Of a stretch of DNA of 64,000 bases, positions 2,116 to 46,972 are shown piece by piece. The stretch is from the NCBI GenBank assembly GCA_030407315.1, contig JALQPE010002849.1, positions 1 to 64,000 of the forward strand. Direction: 5' to 3'. The first letter of the stretch is position 1, and every line of letters begins with the position of its first letter. A program made the position numbers and the translations under genes. The notes under the pieces were generated by a model, which made no database searches, was not told the origin of the DNA, and saw nothing but the letters and a program-made list of their open reading frames with translations. The DNA comes from Asparagopsis taxiformis (taxonomy: Eukaryota > Rhodophyta > Florideophyceae > Bonnemaisoniales > Bonnemaisoniaceae).

Positions 2116-4142
2116 TCAAACACACAGCGGGTGGACTGCTCGTTTCGTTTCGTAAGGACAGCGTGTCCACTGGCTCGTACCAGCTACTACGTCTAACGAA
2201 CTATCGTTCCACACCACCATACCAACTAATTGCTGAAAAGCTACCCCCACATATTGACTGTACCGCCTTGTAAACTCCTTCTGCCGTGCACCTCCTTTCC
2301 CCTTCGGTTCATCCAAACACTCCACAGTAGTCACTAGCCAAGCATCCAGGCGCGCCAGCGTTAGTATGCTCGTCTCTATGTCCATTACTTGTTCTGGTCG
2401 TATCGAATAACCCCTGAAGATGTCCAGCACATTCACAGCTACTCGGTTGTTAAACCATGCATCACCATTCACTTCCATTTCGAAGCTGTCAGGAACCATG
2501 CCTTTGCTGTATCGCAGCTCTGAGAACGGTGCCGTTCGCCACCTCCCCATATCCAAATCACCGTTGCTTTCCCGTTTCAAACGCTTCTCAGACGCTTCGC
2601 GCTTTTGATCCTCTCGCTCGTCCATCTCAGCTCGCGTCGTCAGCATCGTGCATCTAGACATTAATTTCGTGTACCCCAGCGAACCGAACAATCTGTCCCT
2701 CGCATTACGCTTCCGTGCACTCATCACGTCAGACAGTTTCTGCGTCACCTTCACTTTCAATTCCTTGCTCCCCGCCACAGCCTCTTGACAGCACACACGC
2801 TGCTCCTCATCGGAAAACACATCACACCACGGACTTTGACGCAGTACGTGTCGCACCAAGTCATTCAGCAGATCACTCTCGTCCCTGTACGAAGGTGTAT
2901 ACCACTGCAGATTCTTGATGATATAGCCCGGAGGGGTAGCAATATATCCTACACCGTTTTCGCTCCAAAGTGTCCCTTCTACGGCTCTACCTCGATGGTA
3001 CGTCCAGTCCAACGTCTCTGCGTTTGTTCCGCTATAGGGTCCAGCTCCATAGTCTCGTTCTTGCACCACTTTGTCAGGTTTTCCTCAACCGCCCTAAGAA
3101 CTCCAAGGTATTTCACAGGAATGGCTTTCTGTATTTTCGACTTACCGCCACCGTGATCACTGATTCTACCTGTTCTCGCAATTGCAGTAAGGCTGGCATT
3201 TTCCGCCTGCAGAGTCTTCACCTTAGCCTCCAACGCAACTATCTCCGTGGCGAGTGCCTTGTTTGCTATGTCCTGGCTAAACACTTTTTTTCCAGCTCCG
3301 CGATCTTCTTCTTCTGCGCATTGATGCGACTCGCCATTAAATCGATGGATTCCGGCGGATGCAACCTCTCTGCCCTCACCGTCCCCCCATCTCGCACGCT
3401 ATCGGGATTATGATGTCCTCCATCGGCAATAGCCTGACGTCGCGGGGGCGTTACGCGCATATTGGCACCAATGACAGTCTGTTGTGACGAGGCCCGCACT
3501 CCGGCTGCTCTCTCCCCTCAGTACCACCTGACCGCCGATGATAGTTGGCATCCTGTGAACGTTGCTCAGAAACAACATCCCTTGCCGCTATCCTCGGGTC
3601 CCTGACTGCATTACCTGCTGGGGCTGATGTACTCGGCATAGTTGGCGCAGTGGGGGTCACAGCCTCCAGTGTCTCGGGAACCCCGGCTGGGACTCCGTCT
3701 GCAGCACCTCCGCATCTGCCAACCCGGGAGGAACTACCTTTGCCATAGCACTTTGCCGCAATTCCAACATGTTTTGAGCCACTATCATGTCATCATCATG
3801 ATGTTCACTGTCCCTGCGAGCACGCTTGCCTCGGTCAAGCCCCATCTCTCTCCGCGCCGTTCCTCCTTCCTCACTTTCTCGCTGCGGATCCCCAGTTCTG
3901 CGCCGGTCCGTCTTGCGACTACCGGACCGCGGTTCAATGCTGCCGGTAGGCCCAGACCGCTTCTTCGCACGGGATTGTCGGGCACTCGATACAGCAGCTG
4001 CTGACCGGGTTTTCTGGAGGCCCGGAGGCTTTGGAGCTTTCTTCGCAATACGCGGCGGCATAATGAAGCCTTCCCGGAAGCGATGGAACGATTGAGTTGC
4101 ACGAGATACAAAAAAAGATTGCTGTATAGTGTCGGTAACCAC
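2116..4142 (-). pseudogene. coiled-coil protein gene, broken by frameshifts
   Basis: Reading leftward, four overlapping frames make one plausible protein. It begins with a basic, disordered N-terminus (MPPRIAKKAPKPPG, ATG at 4061, with the frame open to 4142). A P/S/T-rich linker follows (3450-3660). Next is a heptad-like coiled coil around 3100-3340 (INAQKKKIAELEKK, then VALEAKVKTLQAENASL). Last is a 300-residue C-terminal region (2116-3069) rich in W, D and R. The breaks lie near 3660, 3285 (a run of T on the plus strand) and 3055. The family is not recognised. The layout of basic N-terminus, coiled coil and globular C-terminus fits a DNA-associated or transposon accessory protein, which is inference. 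It ends only about 130 bp from the inverted repeat at 4271, so it may belong to a neighbouring mobile element. Breaks in homopolymers could be sequence errors. Confidence 0.55.
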
Positions 4143-4270
4143 AACGGTCTGCGATGAACGTTCAGGTCAGGTCAAGTACCGGATAATACGCCAACAGCCC
4201 AGATTGTATACGGTAGGCAGTCATCAACAGTATTTAATGAGGTACAATTAAAGCTGTCGAGCTAGGCCGC

Positions 4271-4545
4271 GAGCACCCCTATGTCCGGAAGACGTCCTGA
4301 TTTGAATTAAAATTTGGGCTATTCTCAAAAACATGCACATGTGAACATGTTTTTGAGATGGGGGTGTGCCGTACGGCACAATCGACCCGCTGAAATCGAT
4401 GTTTTTTGCAATATTTTTTCTGCCCTGAATTGTAGAATTTCTGGGCTGGACAGCAATGCAACTGAGCTGGACATCCACCGGGCGTCCATTTCAACTTGGT
4501 CGTGTATTTTGCATCTGCACGCATAACAGCATCCAAGCAGTCAGG
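4271..4545 (-). repeat. left terminal inverted repeat of MTase-SET element (repeat family R, copy 1)
   Basis: This is the reverse-complement orientation of a repeat found six more times at 7.9-15.5 kb. Reading inward it starts with GCGAGCACCCC, then CCTGATTTGAATTAAAATTT, then a hairpin whose arms are CTCAAAAACATG and CATGTTTTTGAG, then the palindrome GTGCCGTACGGCAC, then an AT-rich tract and the GGACATCCACCGG block. Matching continues to about 4545. The outer GCGAGCACCCC tip is shared only with the copy ending at 10378. Confidence 0.8.
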
Positions 4546-4721
4546 TTCACTGCTCGGACGAAGTGCACCTGGAGTGTGAACGATTGGTTTCTGACAGGCG
4601 AGTACTGCTGAATAGGTTTCACCCTGGACTAATGGTGGCTGGACATGCTGCATTATATGATATACTTGAACTCTGGAACGTAGCTTTATTTGTAGTCGAA
4701 ATGAAAACATCTTTCGTGAAC

Positions 4722-7627
4722 CTAATTCCATGCTCTAAAAGCTGTCCCATAATGAACGTAGAGCTCCTGCCCTGGACGGATATCGCGGATTGCACGTACT
4801 ACAATGATCTTCGGATTTTCTAGGTCCTTCGCCTTGAGCTTCTTCCCCGTCGAACCGCTGCTGTAGTTCTCGACAAACTCGACGTTGGCCATCCGCCTGG
4901 TGTCTTCCGCCGGAGTGTCCTCACCTCGCAAATACCGCGGGTCGTTGATGAACTGCGCCGAACAGAACGGAGCCGGAACAATCCAAATTGGATGCTCGAT
5001 GTTTTCGTCGTCCTCCGCTGTTGCATACAGCTTGATGGCATACATCAAGAATGTTTCCTTCGTTATCGCCATGTGACCCTCTCCGTACGCGAACCGCATC
5101 GACTCCTTGCTCATATCAGAGTACACAACAGTTCCGTAGTATGCACATACTTCGTCGCCAACATTAAATGTCTGTTCAGCGAAGAGCCTCTTCTGCATTT
5201 GGATGCTTAATCAGCGATGGTCGAACGCTCAATTTTTTCGCAACACAATCGTGTGCCCGCATCACGCGAGGGTTTTCAGTTTGCAACCAGCGGCGCAGGG
5301 AAGGTGGCCAATAATGTACCGGTTTTTCCATGTGCTCGTGCGACGCAATCGACTCTGGGCACAGCTGCCAGAGGTACTGCCGAATATATTTCGGGAACCT
5401 CTGGTACAGGAGAAGGCCAGGTGGGGGTTTCGATGATCCTGCGTTCCCTCTGTGTACGCATCGTGACAGAGGGGGACGCCAAGAACTTCTCAGCACTCTG
5501 TTTCGCTTCTGTCGTGACCCTCATGTCAGTGTTGTTTGAAAGAATCACACGTGACATGACTGCACACAGCTTTGGAAGCGATCGTGCCACACACAATTTG
5601 TCCATGGCACTGCCGACGAAAACACGGTGCTCAGGCAAGCTCATAGCTGCTTTTCCCGTTGCGAAAGTGCCAGAGAATGGATCGACAACAATATCACGAG
5701 GCTGTGAATGCTGGCTGATCAACTCCATCATGAGAGCGACGCTCTTCTGCTCTGCACGAACTCTGACCGTAGCACCGGTTGTGCTCCTTGTTCGCCACAC
5801 CATCTCATTCGAATCGATGGCGGGCACGGAGTCCGAATTCATGGACGTAACCTCTTCTTCATCCGATCCGTCATCACTGGCAGCAGCATAGCAGCATCAG
5901 TTGGGCCTTCTGACTGCGGTCCTTTGTACGTTTCCAAGTAATGGAACCATTCGTAGAATTACAAAACGGAGCAGAACACGATGCCGTGGCCACCGGGGCG
6001 CAACAGCTCGTCAAACACTTCGATGCTAGCCTGCATATCTTCTGCAGTTAGCCTGTCGTACGAAGAGTTGGAATCGTTCCTCTTACGACGAACATTGTAG
6101 GGCGGATCAGTCAGAATGAGCTGAAACGTTGCCCGTGATGGGCACGTGTTCTCGGCTCTCGTCGGCACTGACCAAATCTTCGAAAGGGACGTCGTACACC
6201 CGGCAATACTGACTCATTTTCGAAAGAAAGTCCTTTGCGAGAGCCTGCCCTTCACTTTCCTGCTCTTCTGTCGCATGGGGTGACGGTGACGGGGGAGACG
6301 GCCCTTGGGCAGTAAGACTGGTCCTCCCAAGTCCAAGTTCAAGCCTGGTTGTGTGTCTTGTCGACGGAACCAAACCTCTCCCTCCTGTGTTGCGACGAGT
6401 GGGAGTGTCATCAACCGGCTTGGGGACGTTTTCTGCGTCCGCGGCTTGTGTTGCCGGGCGGAGGACAGCCATAACGTCTTCGTCGAGGGTGTCAAAGTAC
6501 GCTGGCAGCTTGTCCGGATTTCCGCTTGACAAGTATATTTCCAGCGCCCCCCAGCGGTCGGACTCCGGCCAGGTGTACAGGTCCGGGTTGACGATAAGAA
6601 ACTGCAACCGGTCGAAGAACTTCCTCACAAGGTCCCTAAATGCACTGTGCTGCGCACTGGTTCTTGTCTCTACTTTTCCACCATATCCATCAGGATGAGA
6701 TAGGGGAGCTTTGTCGTGGTAGAGATCTAGCTTCTGCTCCATCGGTGCGAATAGACCTTCATCGAGCACGTCAAACCAATGCTCACTGCTGTCGAAAATG
6801 ATGTACGGCGCCATCAACTCTTCGAAGCTGGAGAACTTTGCGGCGAAGGCCACATCGGTCCAAGCATGGTATAAAACTTGAACCACGTAACAAGCTCGAT
6901 TAGTGCTTTTCCGATGGGCTGGGACGCGTGCGGCTTCGTTCCCCTCTTCGGCCGCGTCGCCTATTCGGCGACGCGGCAGGTTCTTGTTGTGATTTCGGAT
7001 GATAGACAACGCTTGGAAATACATCAATACCTCGAACGTTTCCGGTGGAGCAAGAACGAAGGCGCTTGGTTCCCCGCGCTGCGGCGCCTGTAGTGGCGAA
7101 GGAAGCATGTTACATCCAATAAGGAAGGTCTGCGGCACGATCCCAGAAAGGATGCAGTGCTCAACCCATTGCCCGATACGCTCATCCTGTCTTGAAAACT
7201 CGGCAATCGGTAATGCCAGACGAACAATCTGCTTGGCTCGCTCAACGTTCATCTCTGCCATGACGATTTCGGCAACATCCGCCTCGACTCCAGCATTCTT
7301 CGAACGACCGCTGAAGGCCATGCTGAGTCGACCTTGCAGCGCCGCAAATTGTTCTTCCGTGCCCTGCGCAACCCAAGCGCCAAGGTCCGCGTATGTGAAA
7401 CCTCCCGGCTTGTCCGTCAAGTCTGCGAAACTTGGGTGGGCGAATAAATCCAGCAAGAGGCGGAGGAAGTCTTTGCCAGCGAGAGTAGTTTCGCGGGCGG
7501 CGCGACCTACGTTTCGACGTGTACCCATGTCACTAGAATCCTCCCAAGGGCTAGCGGGTTCGCGCAGAATTGGCACGGTTGCGTCGTCAACGATCGGATT
7601 GCTGTTGCGCCTGCGCTTATTCGTCAT
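4722..7627 (-). pseudogene. adenine-type DNA methyltransferase-SET domain fusion, broken
   Basis: Read from 7627 leftward. The first 506-residue frame (ATG at 7627) has a basic start and then a mostly helical region with no known motif. A frameshift near 6135 leads into a DNA methyltransferase: TDPPYN (motif IV) at about 6105-6120, then LRPGGHGIVFC. A TAA falls where glutamine would fit (about 5960). Another shift near 5850 leads to motif X/I sequence KSVALMMELI and VVDPFSGTF (about 5650-5750). Motif order IV-X-I is the beta class of N6-adenine/N4-cytosine enzymes, and DPPY favours adenine. After shifts near 5280 and 5190 a SET-like domain follows (4722-5230): FNVGDEVCAYYGTVV, FINDPR, NVEFVE and IRDIRPGQELYVHYG. 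SET enzymes methylate protein lysines. The DNA MTase-SET union on one transcript is inferred from collinearity and close joins. At least four breaks make this copy look dead. Confidence 0.75.
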
Positions 7628-7924
7628 AATGGAATGAGTGGAAATTCGGTACAGGATGGCGACCGCTCGGCGAGACAGTCAAATTTGACGACGTATCTCG
7701 TGACGTTTGCACTCTTTCGTGAGGAACACTGGTTGATATCGAATGGAACAGAGTATACGGGTACACAGCACTGGAAAGGTCTTGAAACCCGTAACCGGTG
7801 TAGGTAATAAGTTGTGACGGATACGTGGTAGAGAAAAAATTTTAAAAAGATTGTGATTCCCTGCCTTTGAGTGTTGTACTGCACGGCCGCCAGTCACATA
7901 GGTTGTCACAGGTGCATCACGCTT
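7628..7924. other. upstream region of the methyltransferase-SET gene
   Basis: About 300 bp between the ATG of the minus-strand gene and the right terminal repeat. It should hold the promoter and 5' leader. No TATA box or other motif stands out. Confidence 0.4.
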
Positions 7925-8148
7925 ACCAGGTGAGCGACATCCGGACGGCCACTGGACATGGGGATGTCCAGCTCAGATGCATTGCTGGCCAGACCAGAAA
8001 TTCTACAATTTCGGGCAGAAAAAATATTGCAAAAAACATCGATTTCGGCGGTCGATTGTGCCGTACGGCACATCCCCATCTCAAAAACATGTTCACATGT
8101 GCATGTTTTTGAGAATAGCCCAAATTTTAATTCAAATCAGGATGCAGA
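7925..8148 (+). repeat. right terminal inverted repeat of MTase-SET element (repeat family R, copy 2)
   Basis: It matches the left copy in inverse orientation: GGATGTCCAGCTC block, AATTTCGGGCA tract, palindrome around CCGTACGG, hairpin CTCAAAAACATG...CATGTTTTTGAG, then CCCAAATTTTAATTCAAATC. Matching stops after CAGGATG, without the GGGGTGCTCGC tip. Confidence 0.75.
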
Positions 8149-8149
8149 T

Positions 8150-9264
8150 ATTCGTCTTCTAGCATTGTCAGAACACATTCGTATAACCACATTTGGAGAA
8201 CCTGAGCCCAGAGCTATCGGTTTTGGCGGGAGCTAAGCCATATCTCATATAATCAGTAACTACTTCCCGCCAGCTGAGTGGTGGAACCCCTGCTATTTCT
8301 ACCAACGAGACATACGGGGTGTCAACTCGGCAATCGTATATGGTTTGGGTGCTAAATTTATTCAAGAGACGAATGGGCTTCGAAAAGGAGCCCAACAGCG
8401 TCTTCTTGTGATCCATGGGTATAGGACTACTCTATTCTTCTCCAGGCTTCCACCATAGCCTCCTCCACCTCCGTTAATGGAAAGAATATCCGAACCGCAC
8501 CTCAACATGTTCTTCTTGTGGTCCATGGGTACTGACATCTCACATGTTCTCCAGGCTTCCACTATAGCCTCCTCCACCTCCGTTAATGGAAAGAATATCC
8601 GAACCGGACCTGAACATGTGTTTCTTCTCATCCATGGGTACTGACATCTCACATGTTCTGAACATGTGAGATGTCAGTACCGGAGAAGTTCTCCAGGCTT
8701 CCTCCGTAGCCACCTCCTCCACCTCCGTCTGTGGGAATCAACACAATATCACCACTGCGTCTTACCTCACATCCACATCTCTCCGGGATGAAAACGGACG
8801 GACGACATAGGGTTTGTAGACGTTTAGAATCTTGTCAGAAAAAAGTAAACGAAAGAGAAGTTCTCTTTCATTGAATGATATCTCGTCCCTGTCGCAATAT
8901 GTTCCATTTTCGTTTTCTCGGGTTGCACACCCATCATGGGTGATCAAGGCCTGGATCGAACCCTCCGAGGGTCTTCGATGGATAGGACAGATAGTGGAAG
9001 GCTTTTAAGCCTGTGACCAAGCGGCTATTGATTGGTTGGAGGAAGGAAATTACAGAGGAAATATAGCTGAGTACGGTGCTCGCGATAGCTGTTAGGTTAA
9101 AGTCAAATATGTTTTTCGATTATTTTTCGTACGGAAATGCCTTGGAAAAGACGATGCTTTGTCGTTCTCTTGGAGGGACTCCGTTGCATTGCACTCAATT
9201 CGAGAGCATCGTCATGAAGGAGAGGGTTCTTTCTGCTTGTTAGAATCGGTTTAGAGCAGATAGC
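8150..9264. other. gene-free stretch with a ~110-bp tandem repeat
   Basis: Around 8413-8722 three to four units of ~108-110 bp repeat (CCATGGGTA recurs at 8414, 8522 and 8632). On the minus strand each unit encodes a short glycine-rich peptide (INGGGGGYGGSLE), so this may be a relic of a glycine-rich protein. A 45-bp hairpin (8637-8681) sits inside. Positions 8725-9264 show nothing I can name. Confidence 0.5.
8637..8681. repeat. 45-bp near-perfect palindrome
   Basis: Two perfect 22-bp arms (GGTACTGACATCTCAC... and its complement) are separated by one base (8659). It lies at the edge of the 110-bp tandem repeat. Confidence 0.9.
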
Positions 9265-10378
9265 TAATGCATTACTGGCCAGCCCAGAAATTTTAGAATT
9301 TCGGGCAGCAAAAATAGTGTAAAAAACCTTGATTTCAGCGGGTCGATTGTGCCGTACGGCACACCCCCATCTCAAAAACATGTTCACATGTGCATGTTTT
9401 TGAGAATAGCCCAAATTTTAATTCAAATCATGGTGTCGAATTTGGCCACAACGGCCCCAGGCACCGGCCGCCGCCCCGAGTGGGGTTGTCACTGGCTTCT
9501 GTAAGCACCAACTGTAAGGCTAAATGGCGTCTCACGAAGGGTCGATTTCAGGCTTAATACGCCAGGGACAGGTCTTGGTCCTTGTTCCATCATGGTCCCA
9601 CCCCACTCTCTCACGACCAACCTGAAATGGACGTCCGGTGGATGTCCAGCTCGATTGCACTGCTGGCCAGCCCAAAAATTCTAAAATTTCGGGCACAAAA
9701 AATTGTAAAAAATCAACGATTTGGGCGGGTCGATTGTGCCGTACGGCACACCCCCATCTCAAAAACATGTTCACATGTGCATGTTTTTTGAGAATAGCCC
9801 AAATTTTAATTCAAATCAGGGTGTCTAATCTGGCCACAACGGCCCCAGGCACCGGCCGCCGCCCCGAGTGGGGTCATCACTGGCTTCTGTAAGCACTAAC
9901 TGTGAGGCTAAATGGCGCCGAAAGATGGGTCGATTCCAGGCTTCAAGCCTAAGTTATGCTAGGGAGAAATCTTCTTCCGTGTTTCATAATGGTCCCGCCT
10001 TACTCCCTCAACACAAACACTACTCACCCATCACGTTACTCATATTCCGTGCACTTTATATTAGTAGTGAACGCGCCTGCTTAGTTGCTGCAATGCGTGG
10101 ATGTAGGCAGCACACGACCAACCTGAAATGGACGTCCGGTGGATGTCCAGCTCAGATGCATTGCTGGCCAGCCCAGAAATTCTAAAATTTCGGGCACAAA
10201 AAATATTGCAAAAAACCTTAAGGTTTCTTGCAATATTTTTTAAGGAATCAATTGATTTCAGCGGGTCGATTGTGCCGTACGGCACACCCCCATCTCAAAA
10301 ACATGTGCACATGTGCATGTTTTTGAGAATAGCCCAAATTTTAACTCAAATCAGGGTGTTCCCCGGATAAAGGGGTGC
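9265..10378 (+). repeat. three tandem-like copies of repeat family R
   Basis: Copies lie at about 9265-9520, 9610-9905 and 10085-10378, all in plus orientation. Copies 1 and 2 continue past the CAAATCAGGGTGTC end into a shared spacer (GGCCACAACGGCCCCAGGCA, then a GGTCGATTTCAGGC-type motif). The repeats are therefore composite units rather than simple transposon ends. The third copy ends in GGGGTGCTCGC, the mirror of the left tip at 4271, and contains an extra palindrome (10198-10241). Confidence 0.75.
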
Positions 10379-10703
10379 TCGCAGCCGCCCCAAAAGCCGT
10401 TTAGCTTGACAGCTGTAATTTTAACACATTACACATCAAGGACACTGCCTGCTTCACGCCACCTCGTCAGGTTTCGAGAGCCCGACTCGGGCCCGTTCCG
10501 AACGGACACTCACATCTCGATTGCCTGTCTTGCATTCCAGCGGTCACGATAGGTGTGTACCTAACAAAATTTCGGTTGTATTGTGTTATTATTTCCAGCG
10601 ATTGGCGTTCACGACCATTCTTCAACTTAAGGTGAAACCTACCATCCACATCACTCCAATACGTCAACGTCAACCATCTCTTTTCCTTTCCAACTCAACA
10701 ACC
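10379..10703. promoter_or_regulatory. presumed promoter and leader of the ParB-dioxygenase gene
   Basis: This 325-bp stretch lies between the end of a family-R repeat and the ATG at 10704. The frame is open from 10521, but the first well-placed ATG is at 10704 (context ACAACCATGGCG, a good eukaryotic start context). No TATA box is obvious. Confidence 0.35.
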
Positions 10704-13700
10704 ATGGCGGATACGCATTTCAGCAGTTTGTTTTCAACGGTTTGCGGCGATCAAGTGAGCGCGTCAGCGGAGTCGCGCGGACTCAAGCGCGGCGTCGATG
10801 TCAATTTGTTTGCGGACGTGGACGGTGCGGCTGTGCATATTGGGACGGCTTCGGTGAGCACTGCTGGTGGCGATGTTGGCCTTCCGCGCACGCTGCACAA
10901 CCACAAGCTGCCGGAAACCGACGAGGCGGACTATATCGTCGTGCGCAACATTGCGACTAAGGACAAGTTCAAGGACCTCCCGTTCCCGTACATGTTTGAT
11001 GGCGCCGAGGGACCGCCGGAGACGATGGGTGGAGCATACGCCGCGGCGTTTTACCCTTGGGATACTCGGATGATGCGCCCCGCTACGGAGGATGGCCCTA
11101 GCGACATTCGTACCCCTGCTGCAGCGTCAAACTTCAACGCAGCGACGAACCAGGCCAGCTCGGGACGGATGCCCAGTACCGGTCCAGCAGGCGAAATCAC
11201 TGGTTCGGGGGGTACGAAGCATCCAGCACGCTCCGTCCCGGTTTCGGGAGGCACGAAGCGCCCTGCTCGCTCTGCCAGAGCCTCCAGTGGAGGCACGAAG
11301 CACCCTGCTCGCTCTGCCAGAGCCTCCAGTGGAGGCACGAAGCACCCTGCTCGCTCCAACGTCACCGAAGCTACTACGCAGGACGTAACCGAGGTGGACG
11401 ACGAACCGGAGGTGGCGGAGAGCATTCGTGAGCAGCAGGGGACGCAAATTACGGTGCCCAAGTTTGTGACGTCGGATTACGTCGGAGAAGGAGCGACTGT
11501 GTTGGTGAGGCAGCTAGTGGAACCGGCCGTGACCCTTCGGGATGTGAAAGAAGACCACGTGGAGGACCTGCGCAACAATATGTTGGCTGTGGGGTATGTG
11601 AGCTCTTCGCGTATCACTGTGACGGTGCTGAGGTCGCAGAACACGCATCTGCCCGCCGACACGCGTCTGTTCCAGAATGGCAAATTCCATGCCAATGCGA
11701 ACGTGACCGTGATCGACGGACTGCATCGTCTCAATGCTATGCATAGCATTGCCGATGACTTCACGCGCCTCACCCGTATGCACAGAACCAAGCTGCCACA
11801 GGACGCAAACCGCTTGCGCTGGGTTACTCAGCCTCTGGATGTGTACTACCTTCGCCGCAAGGACGACAGTGATCTTCAGCGTCATGAGATCATCCACAAG
11901 AGTGCAGAGTCGAACCATACGACTGGGACGCAACTGACGGAGCGCTCCCTGGTTCGAATCTTGTCGTCCATCCAGCAGTTCATCCGTACGATTGCTGATG
12001 CAAATAACGTGGAAAACGCTGGCGACTTGCGTGAGTCTGATGTCATCCGAACATTGTTCGAGGCGCAGTTCATGGGGATGATGAATTCAACGAACACGGC
12101 CCGGCGGTGGACGCGTTTGGCTATAGCAACGCTGAAGCATCCTGTTCTCGACGAAGTGTTGCGTGAGCTGAACAATTCCGAGCGCCGCAACGAGATTGGG
12201 ATAACGCACCTGGACCACAAGATAGTGCGCGAGTTGCTGGAAGAAAACTTTGTCTTCGTCTTGCGTGGTCTTTCGGAGTACTTGAACCCTGCTCATGGTG
12301 GACGTCCGGATGGACGCTTTGACGTGAACGACTTCTATACATACGTCCGTCGCGTGACTGCAATAGCAAATTCTCTGTACGCTGCGTATGGGCGCCCAAA
12401 GAGTATTATGCGCAAGTCATTTCTGAGCACAGAGATGGCAATTGGGTCGGTTAAGCAGCCGAAGGAGTTGCAATGGCATCTCACCAATGCCATTGCAATG
12501 TATAGAGGGGACGACCGGAGCAGTGAGGTTCGAATGCGACGGAGAACCACGCGTTTACAGGATTTGGAAACGAACTTGAAAGAGTTTTTCAATCCGACAT
12601 TGAAGAAGAAGACTAAGGCTCGACGCAAACGCCGCCCTTCTGCTGCCAATGTGAGACTCACTCATAAGAAGCAGCGGAATGTCGAACATGAGCCTGCTTC
12701 GCATGGCATCCGCCGCCGTTCACAGCGACTTCGCTCGACGGGGAGCACACGCCTCGAGGAAGAAGAGCCGGTTGTGGTACAACAATCCGCCGGGGAAGAA
12801 GAACAGGCCGTTGTTGATAAACCCACCGATCAACAACAAGCCACTGCTTCCGGTGATGAGGTTGACGAAGACTCCGCCCGTTCCCCCGATTCTGCCGTTG
12901 AGATTGTCCCCCAAGATAACCAACGTGCTGGTGCGACTCCCTCCAACCAAGAATCTGTCCATACCGCTTCGGACGAGGAAGACAAAAAACGGTGCAGACG
13001 AGGGCCAAGTCGAAAGCAAGGGGGTCCGCGAAGTGACAATTACGCTCACTGTTCCGGAAGGAGTCGAAGTCGATGAAGACGATTACATCGTTCGTGACTC
13101 TCCTTCTGAACACGACCTCCTGTTCGACGACCGTATGCCATCTCTTCCTGACGATTTCGAAGTCAAAGACCGAGCCGAAGGGCATCATCTGGCGCAGCGT
13201 CCCGCGGACGTCATCGCATCGGTGAGGGTTGGCTGTCTGCCCCCGATTGAGCTCAGGTTGTTATTGGAGAGTGTGGAAATCGATGAGGAGGGCAGAGATG
13301 TGAGGTATTTGAAGCAAGTGGCGATGGACCCTGTGTTTGAGGGGCTGCATATTCCGGAACAACATCGGGCTCGTCATCTTGTTTTGGAGATCGACACCAT
13401 CTATCCGATGTTTTTCGCAGCGTGGAAGATGGCTGCCAAGGCGATGTGTGAGCCTACATCGACGTTTCTACCCTCGAGGCTGGACTTCGCCCAGGTTGCG
13501 CGAATGTCTACAAGCTGGAAGGATTCGTATGAGGCCGGCACTGGTATGGCGTACCTCCACAATTGCCGAACGGAAATCAACGAGCGAGGGTATACGGTGA
13601 TGCACAATTTCGCGGATGTAAGCTACCTCGATGCGTCGGACAAGTTCCCATTGACTTGGGTCTCATGGAAGAAATTCCTAACCAGGAATTGTTTCGGTAC

Positions 13701-14702
13701 TTCTTGGGAACATGGGAGGGTGAGGAGGTGCACAAGGACCCTGGGAACCGGCAGCTGTGGAGTCCCATTGTCAATACGGGGGACGATGAAACAGATGAGA
13801 AGAACCGGAATGAGGGGAGGGCTCGCTTCACGTCTACGCGCCACTGCCTGGTTGACTATGCCGAGAACGATGAGACGCATATCGACCGGTTCAAGTTTGT
13901 GACGCGGCGAGCCCTGCTGGATGTGTGGTTGGGAATCCTTGTCCGGCTGATAGGGCTGGAGGAGTGCGGTTTACCGGGAGAAAAACTTGTCATGCCGGCA
14001 TCTGGGGGACGGTTTTTGATAACGGGAAAGGGGTGTCCTCGGCAGGTCCCACACAATGATTTCCCTGTTCCTCCTCGCGACCGCAAAGATCAACTTCCGG
14101 GTTACTTTGCTATTGCCAACGGAGATGACCCATTCCCTATCTGGGTGTGTCCAGGGTCCCACAAGTACGTCTTTTCCAAAGCGCTGGAATTAGATATGTA
14201 CGCCAAGACGATGAAGCTGAAGAAGGTAATCGTTCCGCCACGTTCAGTCTTCATCGGTCACGGCCATGTACAACATGCCGGGGCAGGGCATGTCGACAGA
14301 GTTGTGTCACACACGACAACGAGGTATCACACGTATTTCAGGAATGCGTCGTATCCGATTCCCGACAATGTTTCGTTTGGTTTCATCAGGCGGTTGGGAT
14401 TCGAAGAAGAAGTAATCGCCAATGCTCCGCGCCGGTCTGCCAGGCAAAGTCAACCGGCACCTGTCAATGTTCGCCACAAGACAGTTGTTCCCATCCCAGT
14501 CAAGAAAGATCGTAGGCCGAAGACAGGGCAGCTCGGAATCATGCGGATGAAGACGACAGAAGCTCCCAAGAAGAGAACCCTCACACCGGGTGAAGAATTC
14601 ATCTTGAGCTATTCAACTCCACGGTTGCCGATAACGCCTATTCTGCCGGGAGATCCTGAATATGATGAGGACGAAGACGAAGAACAATTTTCCGACGGCT
14701 AG
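10704..14702 (+). pseudogene. ParB-like domain + Fe(II)/2-oxoglutarate dioxygenase gene with two frameshifts
   Basis: One long collinear coding region in three pieces: frame from 10704 to about 12985, a shift at the A6 run near 12985, a second frame to about 13660, then back to the first frame to 14702. The N-terminus (MADTHFSSLFS) is followed by the 14-residue repeat SGGTKHPARSARAS (11205-11357). A ParB/sulfiredoxin-like domain follows around residues 270-400, with VIDGLHRLNAM (about 338-342) in the place of the GxHR motif. Next come a helical region and a basic/acidic tail. The C-terminal piece has the dioxygenase marks: PHNDF (HxD), WVCPGSHKYV, GHVQHAGAG (distal His) and RYHTYF (2OG-binding Arg), closest to the phytanoyl-CoA hydroxylase-type fold. 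Likely role: DNA- or chromatin-linked oxidation, which is inference. Both shifts may be sequencing errors, in which case the gene is intact at about 1,330 residues. Confidence 0.75.
11205..11357 (+). repeat. 42-bp coding minisatellite
   Basis: Two full units (11247-11288, 11289-11330) and a partial third, with a degenerate copy upstream, encode SGGTKHPARSARAS. The repeat sits in the disordered linker before the ParB-like domain. Codon-exact periodicity (42 = 14 codons) keeps the frame. Confidence 0.9.
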
Positions 14703-14979
14703 ATAGCTTAACAACTACTACTAGTAGTACTTTAGCAAACAATTATCAAGAATATAATCATCTCCTTTATCACTTTCAATCTATGAACCTAGTATAATGT
14801 ACTTCCGTTCCATGCTTTCAAACTAGATTGTCCATTCCCTCGTGGGCTGGAGCATGATTTCCAGGACGATTCCCTCACATCTCTAGACTCGATGGTCTAT
14901 GCTAGAAATAGCAGAACAATTGGGTTTGTACGTGCTTCATCGCCTACTTGCTTCTGGTAATGGGTGGACGTGCACGATA
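14703..14979. other. 3' flank, nothing recognised
   Basis: AT-richer sequence after the stop codon, with CTACTACTAGTAGTAC near the start. It is the presumed 3' untranslated region of the dioxygenase gene. Confidence 0.4.
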
Positions 14980-15515
14980 CACGATCAACCTGAAATGGAC
15001 GTCCGGTGGATGTCCAGCTCAGATGCATTGCTGGCCAGCCCAGAAATTCTAAAATTTCGGGCACAAAAAAATATTGCAAAAAACATCGATTTGGGCGGTC
15101 GATTGTGCCGTACGGCACACCCCCATCTCAAAAACATGTTCACATGTGCATGTTTTTGAGAATAGCCCAAATTTTAATTCTAATCAGGGTGTCTAATTTG
15201 GCTACAACGGCCCCAGGAACCGACCGCCGGCCCCGATCGGGGCTATCACTGGCGTCTGTAAGCACCAACTGTAAGCCGGAACCGGCCGCCGCCCCGATCG
15301 GGGCTATCACTGGCTTCTATTAGCACCAACTGTAAGCCAAAATGGCGTCTCACGAAGGGTCGATTTCAGGCTCAACACGTCAGGGACAGGTCTTGGTCCT
15401 TGTTTCATCATGGTCCCGCCCCACTCTCTCACGACCAACCTGAAATGGACGTCCGGTGGATGTCCAGCTCGATTGCACTGCTGGCCAGCCCAGAAATTCT
15501 AAAATTTCCGAAAAA
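14980..15515 (+). repeat. repeat family R, copies 6 and 7
   Basis: A full copy (14980-15190) is followed by the GGCC-rich spacer, which is itself duplicated (about 15195-15335). A second copy (15425-15515) breaks off in the AAATTTC tract. Together with 10085-10378 they flank the ParB-dioxygenase gene in direct orientation. Confidence 0.75.
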
Positions 15516-17463
15516 TCAATTTGGTGGCCCAGCATCTCCTGTGCCGAAAATTCCCGCAGTCACTTCTGATATACTATATCGTAGTAGTAGTAGTAGTCTA
15601 GACGTGTTTCGCACTTGTCCGCATCAGGGAAGGCTGCACAGAAGGTTGAGACTACGCTACTTCTGTACCGCGTCGTCTGAAATAGCGAGTAGTGTTTGTT
15701 GTATAGCCTATACAACTGAGTTGTGGAGTATGCGTCTAGTGGTTTGTAAAGCTTGCAGAATGGGATAGGGATGTGGGTGGCCCTATTTTATGAGTACATG
15801 AGTACCAATATTCAGGGTTGACAAAGCGGAAAGTCATAGGCTCGTACATGTTTGAGATTGCATAGTGGAGAAAATATTTACATCGAAATTTACATGGAGC
15901 TGATGGAGGTTTTAAGGATGAGGTATGAGAGGAAGAAAATTCTTCTGTGGTATGAGGATTTGTTCTGTGGGGGGAAGGAATCTTGGGATGGTACAGGGGG
16001 AGGTGGAAATGTACGGAGTGCGGGTTTAGATTGGAGTGTGATTTGGAGAGGAGTGCCGACGAGCATATTATGGGGATTGGGGAGACGCTGCGGGGTGTTG
16101 GGGTAGTGAGGGCGGAGGAGGTGTTTAGGTGGGACCGTAGGAGGGTGCGGTTGAAGGCGCCGAGAGGAGGGGGTTTTAGGAAAGTGAGGAGAAAGAGGGG
16201 GAGGGGGGTAGCGTCTGTTCTGGCTGTGGTGAGTGGGGATGTGATGGAGAAGAAGGGGGTTATTGTATTTGGGGAGGGAGGGGAGTGGGAGGAAGGGTGC
16301 GAAGTGGGGGGTTGATATGTGTTTCAGAGCGGGGAGGTTTCTGGGGAGACGGCGGGGGAGCGGGAGCGTGGGCCGGTGGTGGTGGTGTATACGGTATCGA
16401 AGATGCGGATGGCGTGGGGGCATGGAGCAGCTGAGGGAGGGAGGGGTGGAGCAGGTCGGGTACGGGATGGGGAGTGAGAGGTTTTGGAAGAGTAAGCTGC
16501 AGGGGAAGTTTGTGTAGAGGGCGAAGGAGAGGGGTTGAGGTAGAGGAGAGAGGGTATTGAAGAACAATACGTTGCAAAGGTGTTGGGGGAGAGCATGGTC
16601 GAGGAGATAGGGGGTGTTTTTCCCTATTCTGAGGTAGTATGAGGACTGGTTATACGAAATCTGTACGGTAGAGCAGAACAGTAGGTATGGAATGGAGGTG
16701 TGCAGCGTGGAAGCGGGGATAGGTAGCTGAAAATGCGTGCTAGAGTGGTATTGGGGGTGTTTGAGGTACAGTACGGGGGAGGTGAGCACCAACTGGAAGG
16801 GGGTGTGAGCGAGAGGATGAAAAAATTAAAGACGAAATTGGAGTCGACCGACAAGGAAAAATAGAGTGGTCGCCGTGATGGATGCGGACATCCAAGTCGA
16901 GCACGGCGGCAGAAATTTCTGGGGTCGAAATTTTTGAATTTCTGAACCGGCGCCCGTCCTAGGTGGACATAGACATGGCGGAAGTCCATCCCGAGGGGGA
17001 CATCCGTGGTACTAGAAACAATGAATGTCGCCCTAGTAATACTAGACGTACTAGACCGCATGGACGTCCGGTTCTAGGCGGACATCCAAAAATACTGGAG
17101 AACATGGACGGCCGCCTAGTAATACTAGGTGTACTAGAGGTTGTGGACGTCCGCGTCCATTTCCGAGAACACAGACGTTCTTTCTTCTCCACCAAGACTT
17201 CGGCGCCGCTCTCCTCGAAAATCCTGCGAGCAGAAATCATGGCTCGTTCATGACTGGAAGCAATGAGCTCCCCATTCGTCCCCCGATTCCATTCCGACCA
17301 CAGCGAGAGCGTACGGAAACAGTGCCGAAGCACACAAAGTTTATGAAGAAAACGACAAAATCTTCAACGCTTTCACACTCGGCTGTGAGGAGCTCATGAG
17401 CTCCTAGGAGAGCTGAACCATGCATGGTTCAGCTCTCCTATACTGTTTCCGTCACAGACACAG
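15516..17463. other. strand-asymmetric G/T/A-rich island and short repeats, no gene
   Basis: Positions 15850-16800 are strongly depleted in C on the plus strand. The complementary strand therefore shows a long P/L/S/H-rich open frame (15890-16792) that I take for a composition artefact. Positions 16970-17160 hold two copies of an ~84-bp repeat (CCTAGTAATACTAG followed by TGGACGTCCG). Abutting palindromes occur at 17388-17405 and 17405-17440. Confidence 0.5.
17405..17440. repeat. 36-bp perfect palindrome, abutting an 18-bp one
   Basis: It is centred on ATGCAT with no spacer and has 18-bp arms (TAGGAGAGCTGAACCATG and complement). An 18-bp palindrome, AGGAGCTCATGAGCTCCT (17388-17405), ends exactly where it begins. 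Confidence 0.95.
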
Positions 17464-19996: not shown

Positions 19997-20020
19997 CACT
20001 ACGGTGTTGAAAAGGGGGCC

Positions 20021-20710
20021 TCAGACAGTACTGCGAGACAGTGATTTTTACTGTCTGAGACAGTAAAAATCACTATGCGGCAAATGAAAATTAATGCCAC
20101 ACTTGGAGACAGTGATTTGCACTGTCTGGCAGACAGTACGGAACACTGTCTGCAGACAGTAAAAAACACTGTCTCACAGTACTGTCTGAGGCAGTGAATG
20201 GAGACAGTAAAAATTAATGATTTATTCAATAGTTGGATATGATGTAATTTACTGTACTGGGCAGTGTTGGCGGATAGTGTTTTGTATTGGCCAAGACAAC
20301 ATGGCCGGATAGTGAAATACGCTGCCTGGGACAATAGATGGGACCAACACGGTGCACTGTCCTGGGTAGTACCTGGAGACAGTGATTTTCACTGTCCTGG
20401 GCAGTACCTGGAGACAGTGATTTTCACTGTCCTGGGCAGTACCTGGAGACAGTGATTTTCATTGTCCTGGGCAGTACCTGTAGACAGTACTTTGTGCTGC
20501 CCTGGGCAGTACCTGTAGACAGTACTTTGTGCTGCCCTGGGCAGTACCTGTAGACAGTATTTCGTGCTGCTCTGGGCAGCACCTGGAGACAGTATTTCGT
20601 GCTGCTCTGGGCAGCACCTGGAGACAGTATTTCGTGCTGCCCTGGGCAGCACCTGGAGACAGTAAAAGTAGTGTCCTGATATAGTAAAATTCGGTGTCTG
20701 GGAGTGGTGG
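20021..20710. repeat. left subterminal GACAGT array with nine 35-bp tandem units
   Basis: GACAGT and ACTGTC occur dozens of times. Between 20360 and 20674 nine direct units of exactly 35 bp follow one another (core CCTGGGCAGTACCTGGAGAC), drifting from GTGATTTTCACTG to GTATTTCGTGCTG endings. A 35-bp hairpin (20040-20074, 17-bp arms) lies upstream. Confidence 0.9.
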
Positions 20711-22278
20711 ATGAGATGGAGCGTCACGCTGTCGTGGGCATCTTTCTGGGGTAGAGGAAGGCAGTTCTAGCGCTATGAGGATGGGGCATGGACGGTATTC
20801 ATATGGGAATGGACAGAATAGTACGGCTAGGAATTTTTATTTCGTAATGACTATGAGCTAGCGAGAGGTATACGCGGTAGGATAGGTAGCAATCTAAGAG
20901 GGTGCGATATGGGAAGCTTCACTCTGGATTTTTTTATTTGCGCAGGCTACATTGAGAATAAACAATCTCTATGTAAAAATGCTACTACAACTAACACTAT
21001 TCCGACGAGTAAAACTAAAACTACTAGAAAAGTCTAGAAATCTATCAACTGATTGAGCTGCATGAATAAGCTAGGAAATGAAGAGAAGAAGAAAAAATGA
21101 TGTAGAGAAAGGAAACAAGTTAGTGACGTTGAATTGGAGAGGGAAACTGATGGTTACCAGGAGACTAACGTACCTTAACGAATACCATTGCATTCCAAGT
21201 TGAGATAGGTACTCACGGGCAGAGGAGATAAGAAAAGTATTGGAGAAGTGGTAAGAGAGGAAGATAAATGAAAGGAGAAGTGGAAAACTCACCGACTGGA
21301 AACCTGAGAAAACGAATAGAATACTGGGTTAGTGGCGTGAAATGTGGAGACGTACCATCTATACCGGTATAAAACAAAGGATCAATAATTACGCTCTGGA
21401 AGCGGTCGCTTCCAGAGCGTAATTATTGATCCTTTGTTTTCCGATGGATATGGAGATGGAAACAGGGATTTCCAGAATCTGTCGTTTAAGTAGTACTCTA
21501 CGGGCGGAAAAGACGTGTAGGAGAACAATAGAGGGATAATTTCGAAACAGAGCGGTGGGATGGGAGGCCCAGTAAAACGATGCCTAGGGTGCGAATTATG
21601 CTTGGAAGCACATGATCTGGCAGAAGAGGCGCACATGATCGACCGCCTTTTATTGTCTAGAATGACGTCATCACTACAGAAATATAGGAAAAACACTAGC
21701 ATATGAGGCCAACAGGAAAGGGGGAGGTGAAGAGTAAGAAAAATGGCGCACTTTCCTGGACGAGGAGTCCGCGCTTCCAGTGATGATGTGGATGGTATAT
21801 ATGGATGACGTCATTGCATGCTTTGAGAACACTTGGCAGGCAGGCTAAGCGGGCCACGTGGATGGTGGCGGTTAGGAGACAGCAGTGTCGAAGAATTTTT
21901 ATAATTTTCATGTTGCAAGCGAGCAGTGAATCTGCATTGCAATATATAAATTTATGCCAATTTAAGATATCACACGGAGTATGATTTAACGAGAGATCTT
22001 GTTTTCACCTTGTGAATAGGGCCGAGAATATGGTAGAGTATACGAGTAGGAACTACGTGCATGAGAAAATCATATTCAGTATTAGTTCTTAGAGCATCAC
22101 TGCGTAATAAACGGAAATGGATACATCTTGGCCGGGTTTGTGTTTAGGGAATGCGATACAACATAGCAAAACGATGTTGAGTAAGGTAAGCCCGGATGGA
22201 ATAACAATCATTCTGCATAAAGTAATGAGATAATGAGCATAGGACAAAGCGTTGTGGTGAACGAGTTCATTAGATCGA
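20711..22278. other. interior of the insertion, no gene seen
   Basis: AT-rich, with only short unrelated frames. It contains the 70-bp palindrome at 21371-21440. Confidence 0.4.
21371..21440. repeat. 70-bp palindrome (34-bp arms, 2-nt spacer)
   Basis: The left arm 21371-21404 and right arm 21407-21440 are exact reverse complements. The spacer is GT (21405-21406). No element boundary or terminal motif is visible at its edges. Confidence 0.97.
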
Positions 22279-23710
22279 ATGAAAGCCGGGAAAGGTTTCG
22301 CAACGGTTGAATGTAGTGGCGAAGAAGTAGCGGAAAAGATTAATTCTCCTTTAGCGAGTGAGACAAGCATCAATATTGCTCAGTATAGTTCGTCTGAGGT
22401 GCAAGTTGATCCTTACAAATTGAATGTCAGAGGTCGTTCGCAAGTGGTTGAAGAAGTCTGCAGCTGCAGCACTAGTGATGGAGCAATTCGTGCGAACGGG
22501 TTTGAGAGCAGAAAACTCGAAAGAGGACAGGGATACTGATCATCGCATTGGAAAGCACATTTTTCGTCCTTGTAGACTTACATGAAGACGTGATAGACAG
22601 AAGAAGTCTGAGAACCAAGAACGGGATGTTTCCAAACAGTTTTTATGACAAACTGGAATATGCTACGGGGACAAAGGCAATGTAGTTTACCAAGGTCGAA
22701 GAGGAAAGAGAACGGAGTCGTATGACCCCCGGAGAAATAGAACAAGCACTTTCTGTTGGTGAAAAAAGCAGAAGAGGAAGAAAATGCTGTGGCATAAGTA
22801 GAACAGGGAAATAATTCTATAAAGAAGGAAAAAGTGGAAACTCCTGATTTTTCTCAAGCAGAAGAGAGATTATCTGCCAAAGCCCAAGCAGAACAGGGAG
22901 TTTCTGATGTCGTGGAGCAAGAACAGGAAATCACTCCAATTGTCGTGACTGAAGAGGTGATTCCTGTTGGTTCCAAAGCAGTATAAGAGGCATTCCTCTA
23001 GAGGTGCACCTTTAAACACCTCAAAAGGAGCAGAAGACCGTCTTGCTGTAGCAAAAGTCGGAGAACAGAAAGGTCCTGCTAAACGTCTTGCTGTGCTCGA
23101 AAAAGAATAGGAACGTCTTTCTGCTTTGAGGACAGAGCGGGAACGTCGTGCTAGGGATAACTCTCCGGGAAGGATTGTCAGAGAAGATCGTCCTCAGGAA
23201 AGGAAACATAGAAGCGAAGTCTGGAAATCAACTTGGACAATAGTAGTCGCATGGACCTAGAAACGGCTGGAGAACAACCTCAAGATGCGCAGAACCGCTC
23301 TGTGATACTGAAAATTCGAATCAGGTCGCCAGAAACTAACAGCACTATCCCGGACAAGGAAGGAGACAAAGATGCCGAAGAGGACAAGGAGGAATCGGGA
23401 AGAAGCGGGAGTTCTGGTTGAAGCGATGAAAGTGAGTCCAGGCTGGATAAGAAGCGAAGAAGATAGCCCGAAGTTTTCTGAACCCGATACGCCTGATAAA
23501 AACAATTGGACTGAGCCTCCCCGGGAAAAGAATAGTATATTCAATGCAAGGAAACGAACGACTGGAGAAGAGGCACTTCTTTTCACTGATGAACAAGAAA
23601 ACTCTCTTTCAGACGGAAAATTTACCAAAAAATTATCTGCGAAGTTGCCTTTATGCGTTCCTTCCAGCTCAAGAGTGAATTATTATATGACAGGAGATAT
23701 ACAATACTGA
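22279..23710 (+). other. degenerate E/K/S-rich coding-like tract
   Basis: Plus-strand frames at 22279-22539, about 22860-22985, 23233-23421 and 23372-23710 are rich in E, K, S and P with repeated EE/EQE runs, and they are interrupted by many stops. They look like the remains of one long acidic, disordered protein, possibly the original cargo gene of the insertion. No motif allows a family name. Confidence 0.35.
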
Positions 23711-23814
23711 GTTTCTTCTGAGCTAGAGACGAAACGATGGCGGGCGCTACTGGAATAACAGAAGAAGGTGATGAGGGTAATTGGTCTGCAACATTGGGAA
23801 AATGACGAACGCCT

Positions 23815-26800: not shown

Positions 26801-26960
26801 GCTGCGATTTTACCACTAGTGGTAGACATTTCTACTATACCTACGAATATACCTGCAGGTATTCAATTCTCTGGAGGGGCGTGTGGAGTGAGACCAGAGG
26901 CACGGTGCGTCACAGGAAGGGAGGCTGGGATGATGAAGGAGGACTAGAGAAATGAGAGAG
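23815..26960. repeat. 1.07-kb macrosatellite, three diverged units
   Basis: Three head-to-tail units begin near 23815, 24905 and 25975. Each contains in order: two or three AAAGTCATCGTAACGATGACTTT palindromes separated by TTTACCCGGTAAAAA tracts; a TAAGCGG..GGGA block; TTTCTCACGACAGAGATTCTG-like sequence; then a hairpin that differs in each unit (24426-24464, 25503-25592, 26528-26561); and a tail with GAAGGGAGG..GATGAAGGAGGAC. No protein signature is seen in any frame. Confidence 0.8.
25503..25592. repeat. 90-bp perfect palindrome without spacer
   Basis: Both 45-bp arms are exact complements, centred on CCTTAAGG at 25547/25548. It is the longest in the window. The arms are GC-rich and unrelated to the corresponding positions in the sister macrosatellite units. 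Confidence 0.97.
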
Positions 26961-27774
26961 AGTTTGTTGAGGCATGATTCTAGCTCTAGTACATAACTAA
27001 ATTGCTCCTCCACAGGCCACGGTAATCGATTCCAGCAGTCCAAGAAAAAATGGACTATATGAATGCTTCATTTCAATATCAGCACTGTGCAGTTGAGCCC
27101 CTTCAAGGTCCAAAACCTTGTCTAGAGTACGCTTCCCGGCCACTTGGAGGCATCCAGACCACTTGCACATCGTTCCGACAAAGTTCAATTTTGGCCATCA
27201 CATCTCCAGTTGTAAGAATCTGGTGACCAAAAATCGATGCATTATGTCAGGCCTAACGTGAAAGCCAGAATCTTTACGAACGCATAGAACACTTTCCCGT
27301 ACTTCCCAGAGCCACTCCATCCCTTACAGATCACTTCCACATCGTTCCGACAAAGTTCAATTTTCGCCATCACATCTCCAGTTGTGGGAATCTGGCGGAA
27401 AAAAATTAGTGATCTCCGGAAGCTCTACCTCGCAAGCCACCAGCTTTCAGGGCGAATAAAACCCTTTTCAGTACTCCCCAGATGCACCCCAACCCTCCCA
27501 GGCCACTTGCACTTCGTTCCGACAAAGTTCAATTTTGGCCATCATATCTCCGGTTGTGGGAATCTGGTGACAAAAAATCGATGCGTTCTGACAGCCCCAA
27601 CGCGCGAGCCGTCAGCTCTCAGGTCGAATAAAACCCTTTTCAGTACTCCCCAGACCCACCCCAACCCTCCTAGACCACTTTGCAGTCTTCTTCGTGAGGT
27701 CCGAAATCGTCTCCTTCTTCTTCCCGAGTGCGAAACTTCAGTCCCTCTCGTATGCTTACAGAGAAGTTGGTTTA
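26961..27774. repeat. ~172-bp tandem repeat, about three units
   Basis: The block CGTTCCGACAAAGTTCAATT recurs at about 27171, 27342 and 27514 (period 171-172 bp), followed each time by GCCATCA.ATCTCC.GTTGT. Units end with CCCTTTTCAGTACTCCCCAGA. No coding signal. Confidence 0.85.
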
Positions 27775-45547: not shown

Positions 45548-45591
45548 CGGGTGGGCCGACTCCTCTCCACTCAACGGACACGCGACGCGCG

Positions 45592-46800: not shown

Positions 46801-46972
46801 AAACACAGATTTCGATGTGAACAGAATTTATTTTCGAAAACATAATTTCTTAATTTTAATATTGATTGAAATTCAGACTTCCCTCGAACATGATTTACCA
46901 TAATGATTGACTCCGTTATGGACTATCTAAATCGTAGTACGATGAAATCAGTGAGATGCAAAGGCGTACTTA

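Follow-up and report, generated by a model that had tools for sequence, protein, structure and literature searches.

A giant Plavaka-type DNA transposon of Asparagopsis taxiformis carries a predicted DNA methyltransferase fused to a SET domain

Studies of how base marks and histone marks are coupled at transposons usually involve two host enzymes, each a separate protein. A segment (positions 4271 to 8148) of a 64,000-nucleotide stretch of the Asparagopsis taxiformis contig JALQPE010002849.1 (hereinafter, the window) raises the question of whether a mobile element can carry both kinds of enzyme in a single protein, as the original prediction held when it described the segment as an element bounded by terminal inverted repeats (TIRs) and encoding a DNA methyltransferase joined to a SET domain. 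A transposon with both domains in one polypeptide and many near-identical whole copies makes this coupling testable with one protein. The segment is almost certainly part of a giant DNA transposon, in a copy that lacks its left end (Table 1); the transposon has a Plavaka (CACTA/EnSpm-like) transposase and, as an accessory gene, a single protein composed of a beta-class amino-methyltransferase and a C-terminal SET domain.

Table 1. Features of the transposon copy in the window
Feature	Position	Strand	Remarks
Plavaka-type transposon copy, left-truncated	2211..17177	.	Without transposase and left terminus
Decayed gene without assigned function	2211..4061	-	ORFs; several frames; starts MPPRIAKK in other copies
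Internal repeat, left of methyltransferase-SET gene (left "TIR" of the original prediction)	4265..4476	-	Palindrome near 4323-4358; inversion joint in L086
Decayed methyltransferase-SET gene	4722..7627	-	Frame pieces; whole ORF in L039 and P0001
SET domain	4746..5186	-	PF00856, E 2.1e-6, above cutoff
N6_N4_Mtase, C-terminal part (FxGT motif)	5612..5806	-	PF01555, E 2.6e-9, above cutoff
Point of ~300 bp missing relative to other copies	5826..5827	.	38/40 scored copies split, with extra bases between
N6_N4_Mtase, N-terminal part (DPPY)	5968..6123	-	PF01555, 18.9 bits, E 0.0016, under the 26.7 cutoff on its own
N-terminal region without assigned function	6110..7627	-	No credible Pfam match
Internal repeat (right "TIR" of the original prediction)	7962..8142	+	Palindrome near 8079-8114
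Internal repeat	9268..9437	+	Palindrome near 9370-9405
Internal repeat	9612..9826	+	Matches second inversion joint
Internal repeat, interrupted	10049..10386	+	Palindrome near 10293-10328
ParB-like ORF region	10425..13902	+	Frames 10425-13076, 12655-13902; in L084, a single 979-aa frame
2OG-Fe(II)-dioxygenase-like ORF	13533..14702	+	HxD, H, R invariant in 4/4 relatives
Internal repeat	14941..15194	+	Palindrome core at 15127
Internal repeat, partial	15391..15520	+	
Right terminal inverted repeat	17131..17177	-	40/47 positions, including the first 10, shared with the left terminus of copy C2479

Each frame piece of the window methyltransferase-SET gene was scanned separately against Pfam. On the minus strand, the pieces are ordered as an N-terminal region without assigned function (6110-7627), the first part of an N6_N4_Mtase domain (5962-6213), its last part (5279-5896), and a SET domain (4725-5210), in agreement with the single collinear, decayed gene originally described; a further piece (5179-5520) had no Pfam match. 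The decay consists of reading frame shifts and the loss of approximately 300 bp at 5826/5827, which, among 40 scored copies, are absent only from the window and the near-identical contig C2719.

At other sites in the genome, the gene is whole and forms one 1065-aa open reading frame (ORF) that includes the N-terminal region, the beta-class N6_N4 DNA methyltransferase, and the SET domain. Both domains exceed their Pfam cutoffs in this ORF, whereas the DPPY piece of the window does not when scanned alone. In P0001, the PF01555 match reaches 57.2 bits (above the cutoff), and DPP (507-509) precedes FSGT (748-751). Beta-class amino-methyltransferases have the DPPY motif ahead of the FxG motif. The nearest solved chains are the adenine enzymes DpnA and CcrMI, followed by a cytosine-N4 enzyme at an E value of 0.014, and the closest relatives are phage and bacterial DNA methylases; the enzyme is predicted to be of the beta-class amino type, modifying adenine N6 or possibly cytosine N4.

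The fusion also occurs in a second, diverged family (23% identity over 887 aa; E value, 4e-49), in which ParB-like, methyltransferase, and SET parts are joined in one ORF. The SET domains of the two families score 29.3 and 27.6 bits (cutoff, 22.4). SET lysine methyltransferases usually have an NHxC-type motif and a catalytic Tyr; the fusions of both families retain N992 and Y1057, with D after the N where H is usual, as well as DPP and FSGT. The original prediction of a mobile element uniting the two domains was thus borne out, and intact homologs do not resolve into two separate genes: 23 of 30 loci, picked by high score, carry one unbroken ORF. Codon differences among loci (15 synonymous and 12 other single-base changes) gave a pN/pS of 0.23 (binomial probability, 2e-4, or 0.005 if 70% of changes are expected to be nonsynonymous) for the best-scoring loci, a choice that favors whole copies; the count excluded the duplicate loci L039 to L042 and the codons in which more than one base had changed (617 to 619). 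In protein searches for the fusion, P0001 was the only match among the scored candidates, which shared exact words with the query and numbered no more than 8000 per search. A scan for viral relatives found none, and is weak because its two patterns were taken from a poorly aligned stretch.

The gene is enclosed by inverted copies of one repeat, as predicted: the pair 4295-4387/8050-8142 (93 nt) is 99% complementary and the pair 4387-4476/7962-8051 (90 nt) is 93% complementary, far beyond chance. These real and nearly identical repeats are what would be expected if a 3.9-kb element used them as TIRs to move the methyltransferase-SET gene alone. That reading is hardly tenable: window positions 4001-8500 match at approximately 98% through both flanking repeats in all four copies compared, the repeat recurs between the genes of a larger element, and the true ends are located elsewhere, next to the gene for a Plavaka transposase. 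The boundaries originally assigned at 4271 and 8148 are thus not those of the element.

Copies with differing flanks share the right end at 17177. To the left of position 2211, the sequence continues in four other copies, which agree among themselves over approximately 1.1 kb. Position 2211 was rejected as the element's own left end, since truncation of the query copy explains why alignments begin there; a frame piece of the decayed gene in this region (2119-3084) had no Pfam match. The contig C2613, which matches positions 1-2214, was rejected as an empty site: its alignment stops at 2186 and does not pick up again at 17178. The element, which measures 20.1 to 21.5 kb in the four copies that have both ends, includes the Plavaka transposase gene together with several other genes. 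The termini (5'-CGTCTGTGTT...AACACAGACG-3') are fixed at 10 left and 10 right ends, with one right end altered; they fit neither of the fungal subgroups, PlavakaA (TGT..ACA) and PlavakaB (CATCA..TGATG), as given in PMC12730594. Plavaka target-site duplications are 2 to 3 bp. The dinucleotides flanking the four copies are TA/TA, TA/TG, AT/TA, and TA/CA, so that a matching pair, as a target-site duplication would leave, was found in one copy and not in the other three. The transposase domain (PF18759) scores 86.7 bits against a cutoff of 26.3 in the ORF of L052 (872 aa up to the end of the stretch), and CHRC and HLLDH are visible by eye in the ORF examined for Plavaka membership. Genome-wide, all 123 scored PF18759 matches are above the cutoff, many of them in frames of 1036 to 1037 aa, and the element is abundant in the genome.

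Genome-wide, a 34-place pattern of the palindromic core of the repeat matched at 3645 sites on the forward and 3716 on the reverse strand, whereas a control with the pattern reversed gave 0 on each. The palindrome is family specific, and palindromes adjoin the genes in both families. Among 39 linked pairs, the methyltransferase-SET gene is oriented in one way relative to the transposase in 28 and in the other in 9; the remaining two (C476 and C41) are at other distances. In L086, in which the gene is flipped, both inversion joints fall in the repeats. Misassembly is unlikely as the sole cause of the two orientations, with the second arrangement present on nine contigs at 9.42 to 9.79 kb; seven of these have a 1154-aa frame, and the other two have frames of 1137 and 452 aa. 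L086 differs from other copies by 10 to 13 synonymous and 8 to 15 other changes, and the inversion may reflect an old divergence between lineages.

Two further ORFs were named from their motifs. The ParB-like ORF, without a Pfam or NCBIfam match, has a DGxHRxxA motif that is invariant in all five aligned families and present in both fusion families. Its protein matched the phage ParB family phrog_1033 (E value, 0.003; L085 only) and, among PDB profiles, only SbnI (E value, 0.025); a protein search scoring at most 8000 candidates that share exact words returned nothing. The signature of 2OG-Fe(II) dioxygenases is an HxD...H triad with a downstream R. In the dioxygenase-like ORF, H125, D127, H199, and R215 are invariant among all four relatives, and no Pfam, NCBIfam, or credible PDB match was found. 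Within the reach of Pfam, no family appeared at an E value of ≤10 for this ORF or its relatives, and membership in TET/JBP was not indicated. Both transposon families have a relative of this ORF (E value, 1e-14), and a similar gene set adjoins a copy of the second family.

What might such an element do with these proteins? The explanation that we consider somewhat probable as a whole combines a fusion-bearing Plavaka-type element with targeting and self-marking; the targeting and self-marking part is itself possible but open to doubt. Cut-and-paste transposition would be driven by the transposase. Binding of the palindromes would fall to the ParB-like protein, which is a separate product here and part of the fusion in the second family; it would recruit the methyltransferase-SET protein to the DNA of the element itself, and that protein would then methylate bases as well as histone lysines close by. 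Host silencing would consequently read the marked copy as expressible or as self, and one of the marks may be removed or converted by the dioxygenase. That the element might mark its chromatin on both the DNA and the histones, as initially proposed, is plausible. A more elaborate version, which we regard as rather unlikely, is a self-addressing system in which the ParB-like protein would read family-specific, parS-like palindromes, one enzyme would write both marks, the dioxygenase would edit them, and inversion would change the orientation and upstream sequence of the writer gene. Each family would then mark only its own copies, and the combination of palindromic sites, ParB-like protein, and writer would give a giant element a simple code for telling its own copies from the rest.

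The same proteins could serve other ends. The methyltransferase-SET protein may silence its own copies rather than protect their expression, which would keep damage low and allow the family to persist. Bdelloid transposons carry the mark of a bacterial-type amino-methyltransferase alongside H3K9 methylation (PMC8885841), in line with such self-restraint; the families are numerous and near-identical and therefore moved recently, which argues against it, and we consider it an outside but serious candidate. The closeness of the methyltransferase to phage and bacterial enzymes would also suit a shielding role, in which base methylation keeps nucleases off the DNA of the element once excised or while replicating, much as in restriction-modification, and a nonhistone partner (e.g., the transposase) is the substrate of the SET domain. 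This role is improbable, as it leaves the SET half without explanation although that half is kept in two diverged families. Finally, the methyltransferase-SET, ParB-like, and dioxygenase-like genes could be hitchhiking after capture by chance. Giant transposons often bear accessory genes of unknown role (PMC12477816), and 74 of 139 scored mobile SET matches (150 minus 10 strong host-like matches and C1479, with four in-frame stops) are in frames shorter than 1065 aa. However, the recurrence of a similar gene set beside the second family, frames of at least 1100 aa in 52 of 78 second-family matches (one score group), and the low pN/pS in the first family make passenger status very improbable.

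Parts of the self-marking explanation are already in print: ParB-methyltransferase cargo of algal transposons with a proposed self-marking role (PMC12477816) and SET genes in other DNA transposons (PMC12730594). For a SET-methyltransferase fusion in a transposon, no printed report was found in titles and abstract openings among the matches listed. In Ectocarpus, Sola1-1_Ec32 is likewise a giant DNA transposon (21.5 kb) with ParB-like and amino-methyltransferase cargo; its accessory protein of approximately 1100 aa, on the strand opposite the transposase, combines ParB-like and N4/N6 methyltransferase parts and was proposed to bind and modify its own element (PMC12477816). That element has a Sola1 transposase, and the excerpt mentions no SET domain, whereas the window family has a separate ParB-like ORF and a methyltransferase fused to SET. 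HarbingerS and Phytophthora MuDR transposons also encode SET histone methyltransferases (cited in PMC12730594), but they belong to other transposase families, and the sections of that source consulted mention no DNA methyltransferase fusion. According to the same source, fungal DNA transposons, including Plavaka, carry a TET/JBP dioxygenase acting on DNA marks; the Plavaka type and a putative dioxygenase are common ground, but the enzyme is a recognized TET/JBP there and dioxygenase-like by motif here, where methyltransferase-SET and ParB-like genes and other termini are found. Mobile elements encoding DNA methyltransferases further include retrotransposons, with DNMTs in dinoflagellates and charophytes and Dam-like enzymes in DIRS, for which methylation of self-DNA was proposed (PMC5890265); these differ in being retrotransposons with C5 or Dam-like enzymes, and no SET fusion is mentioned in the extract available. 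The bdelloid N4CMT similarly ties a bacterial-type amino-methyltransferase to chromatin signaling in a eukaryote; according to PMC8885841, it is a host gene with a histone-reading chromodomain, and histones are written by a separate protein (SETDB1), whereas in the Asparagopsis element the DNA writer and the SET domain form one transposon protein.

The inverted copies of one repeat that were predicted to enclose a methyltransferase-SET gene are present at 4265-4476 and 7962-8142 of the window, where they pair in one stretch of 93 nt (99% complementary) and another of 90 nt (93%). Scanned as separate pieces, the minus-strand frames between them comprise an unknown N-terminal part, a DNA methyltransferase (N6_N4_Mtase, PF01555) in two parts, and a SET domain (PF00856). 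The copy is decayed, as originally described: its pieces are spread over different frames, and ~300 bp present in 38 of 40 scored copies is absent at 5826/5827, a gap confined to the other two, the window copy and C2719, a near-identical contig.

Intact copies of the fusion were found in the host genome. At locus L039, all parts lie in a single 1,065-aa open reading frame (ORF), and a protein database holds one corresponding cluster (P0001; 1,065 aa; 13 members, 99% identical), in which the methyltransferase (residues 501-774) and SET (909-1058) domains both score above the Pfam cut-off. Among high-scoring loci, which are not a random sample, the ORF is whole in 27 of the 34 read (23 of 30 after removal of four duplicates), and single-base codon changes include 15 synonymous and 12 non-synonymous ones (pN/pS, 0.23; binomial probability of this split, 2e-4, or 0.005 if 70% non-synonymous changes are expected). 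The methyltransferase resembles phage family phrog_67 and bacterial adenine enzymes. The methyltransferase-SET fusion in a giant transposon is real and unusual, with a putative function, and may already have been described in the red-algal literature. According to Kojima 2025 (PMC12730594), many fungal DNA transposons, including Plavaka, carry TET/JBP, and SET genes are cited there for HarbingerS and Phytophthora MuDR. A giant transposon of Ectocarpus encodes an accessory protein combining a ParB-like domain with an amino-methyltransferase (PMC12477816).

The flanking repeats had also been read as terminal inverted repeats, a reading that fails because four other copies match window positions 4001-8500 at ~98% straight across both of them; the repeat also recurs at several places between 9.2 and 15.5 kb. 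The interval 4271-8148 is therefore wrongly bounded as a whole element, and lies inside a giant transposon whose ends are elsewhere. Two copies match the window almost unbroken from 8200 to 17,179, and the flanking sequences of copies part at 17,178, just past the right end. At the other side, leaving aside the window and C2719, 37 rows start at 2211; in the four copies read further, ~1.1 kb left of this point agrees and leads to an ORF whose Plavaka transposase domain scores 86.7 bits (cut-off, 26.3). Further left, copy C2479 contains an inverted counterpart of the window right end (first 10 positions identical, 40/47 matching). The termini are CGTCTGTGTT (ten left ends) and AACACAGACG (ten right ends) with varied flanks, except that one right end is altered and two of the ten left ends share a flank. 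Four copies with both ends, their interiors read in part, span 21,262 (C519), 20,079 (C136), 21,525 (C1871), and 20,104 (C2479) bp. Comparison for target-site duplications gave equal flanking dinucleotides in C519 (TA/TA) and different ones in C136 (TA/TG), C1871 (AT/TA), and C2479 (TA/CA). At locus L051 (C266), the right end of one copy abuts a position equal to window 2380 of another, a joint of tandem or nested truncated copies.

The usual gene order is transposase (+; absent from the window copy), unknown gene (-), methyltransferase-SET (-), repeats, ParB-like ORF (+), dioxygenase-like ORF (+), and right end. A Pfam scan named no family for the unknown, ParB-like, or dioxygenase-like proteins. 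The ParB-like motif DGxHRxxA is invariant in 5/5 sequences, and the top solved chain is the ParB-fold enzyme SbnI (E, 0.025); the PHROG "ParB-like partition protein" matches only L085, from a second family (E, 0.003). In the dioxygenase-like protein, HxD, H, and R are invariant in 4/4, and the PDB gave no credible match. Both identities are leads drawn from sequence motifs.

Pairing 123 scored Plavaka hits with 139 SET hits (11 SET rows having been removed beforehand) yielded 39 pairs, with SET on the opposite strand 5.2-5.5 kb away in 28, on the same strand 9.4-9.8 kb away in 9, and at other distances in 2. In L086, one of the nine, the sequence from window 4290 to ~9820 is reversed between normally ordered stretches. 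Because both joints fall within repeat copies, the inverted repeats look like recombination sites. L086 has diverged from other copies (10-13 synonymous and 8-15 other changes), so that a long-standing split between lineages accounts for at least part of the difference in orientation.

An N6_N4_Mtase search of the genome (141.5 Mb; 3,156 contigs) gave 2,605 candidates, of which 150 were scored, all above the cut-off. The host is probably a red alga; its genome has ten rows for light-harvesting proteins, two of them belonging to one gene, and for one of these proteins the second-ranked solved chain is 7y5e, from the red alga Porphyridium. In the high-copy L085 family (family 2), a ParB-like motif close to the N terminus, a methyltransferase (655-878), and SET (1004-1151) are united in one protein, which shares 23% identity with P0001 over 887 aa (E, 4e-49); frames of at least 1,100 aa occur in 52 of the 78 rows of the family's score group. 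Adjoining a copy of this family on contig C436 is a 1,211-aa ORF with a ParB-like motif, whose C terminus is akin to the window dioxygenase-like protein (E, 1e-14); the ParB-like part of this ORF shows a weak relationship to that of the window family (E, 3e-4). A 947-aa ORF (L087:694-3537) is transposase-like by eye in its first part, where the Pfam scan gave no match, and over its final 280 residues it shares 36% identity with the dioxygenase-like C terminus of the 1,211-aa ORF next to it. A third kind, combining a ParB-like motif with a methyltransferase and giving no SET match in the Pfam scan, occurs in L003, L006, and the window, where it is another ParB-methyltransferase family. Since L006 (C609) has a cysteine-rich C terminus where SET would be, accessory proteins seem to differ in their C-terminal parts.

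Family 1 repeats contain a 36-nt imperfect palindrome with perfect 13-nt arms; its core pattern has six matches within the window copy, and its 34-place form has 7,361 in the genome (reversed control, none). Near the family 2 genes is a different palindrome (37 nt; perfect 18-nt arms). The ParB-like proteins would presumably bind such palindromes. Window 23766-28153, with clusters of the family 2 palindrome (TTACAGCAAAGTCATCG..) and family 2 repeats and no frame of at least 260 aa, looks like a family 2 element remnant. Another high-copy repeat (19997-24000) recurs over ~4 kb at 99-100% identity in at least eight other contigs.

Additional mobile-element and methyltransferase genes in the window
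Feature	Position	Strand	Remarks
DDE_Tnp_4	39131-39955		mobile-element gene
Retroviral-type protease	45469-46845		mobile-element gene
DUF7869	46973-48481		mobile-element gene
ParB-like methyltransferase, nearly whole 1005-aa frame	50308-53325	-	VVDGMHRLTAI motif; N6_N4_Mtase 44.2 bits
RVT_2 + integrase match	60703-62910		mobile-element gene
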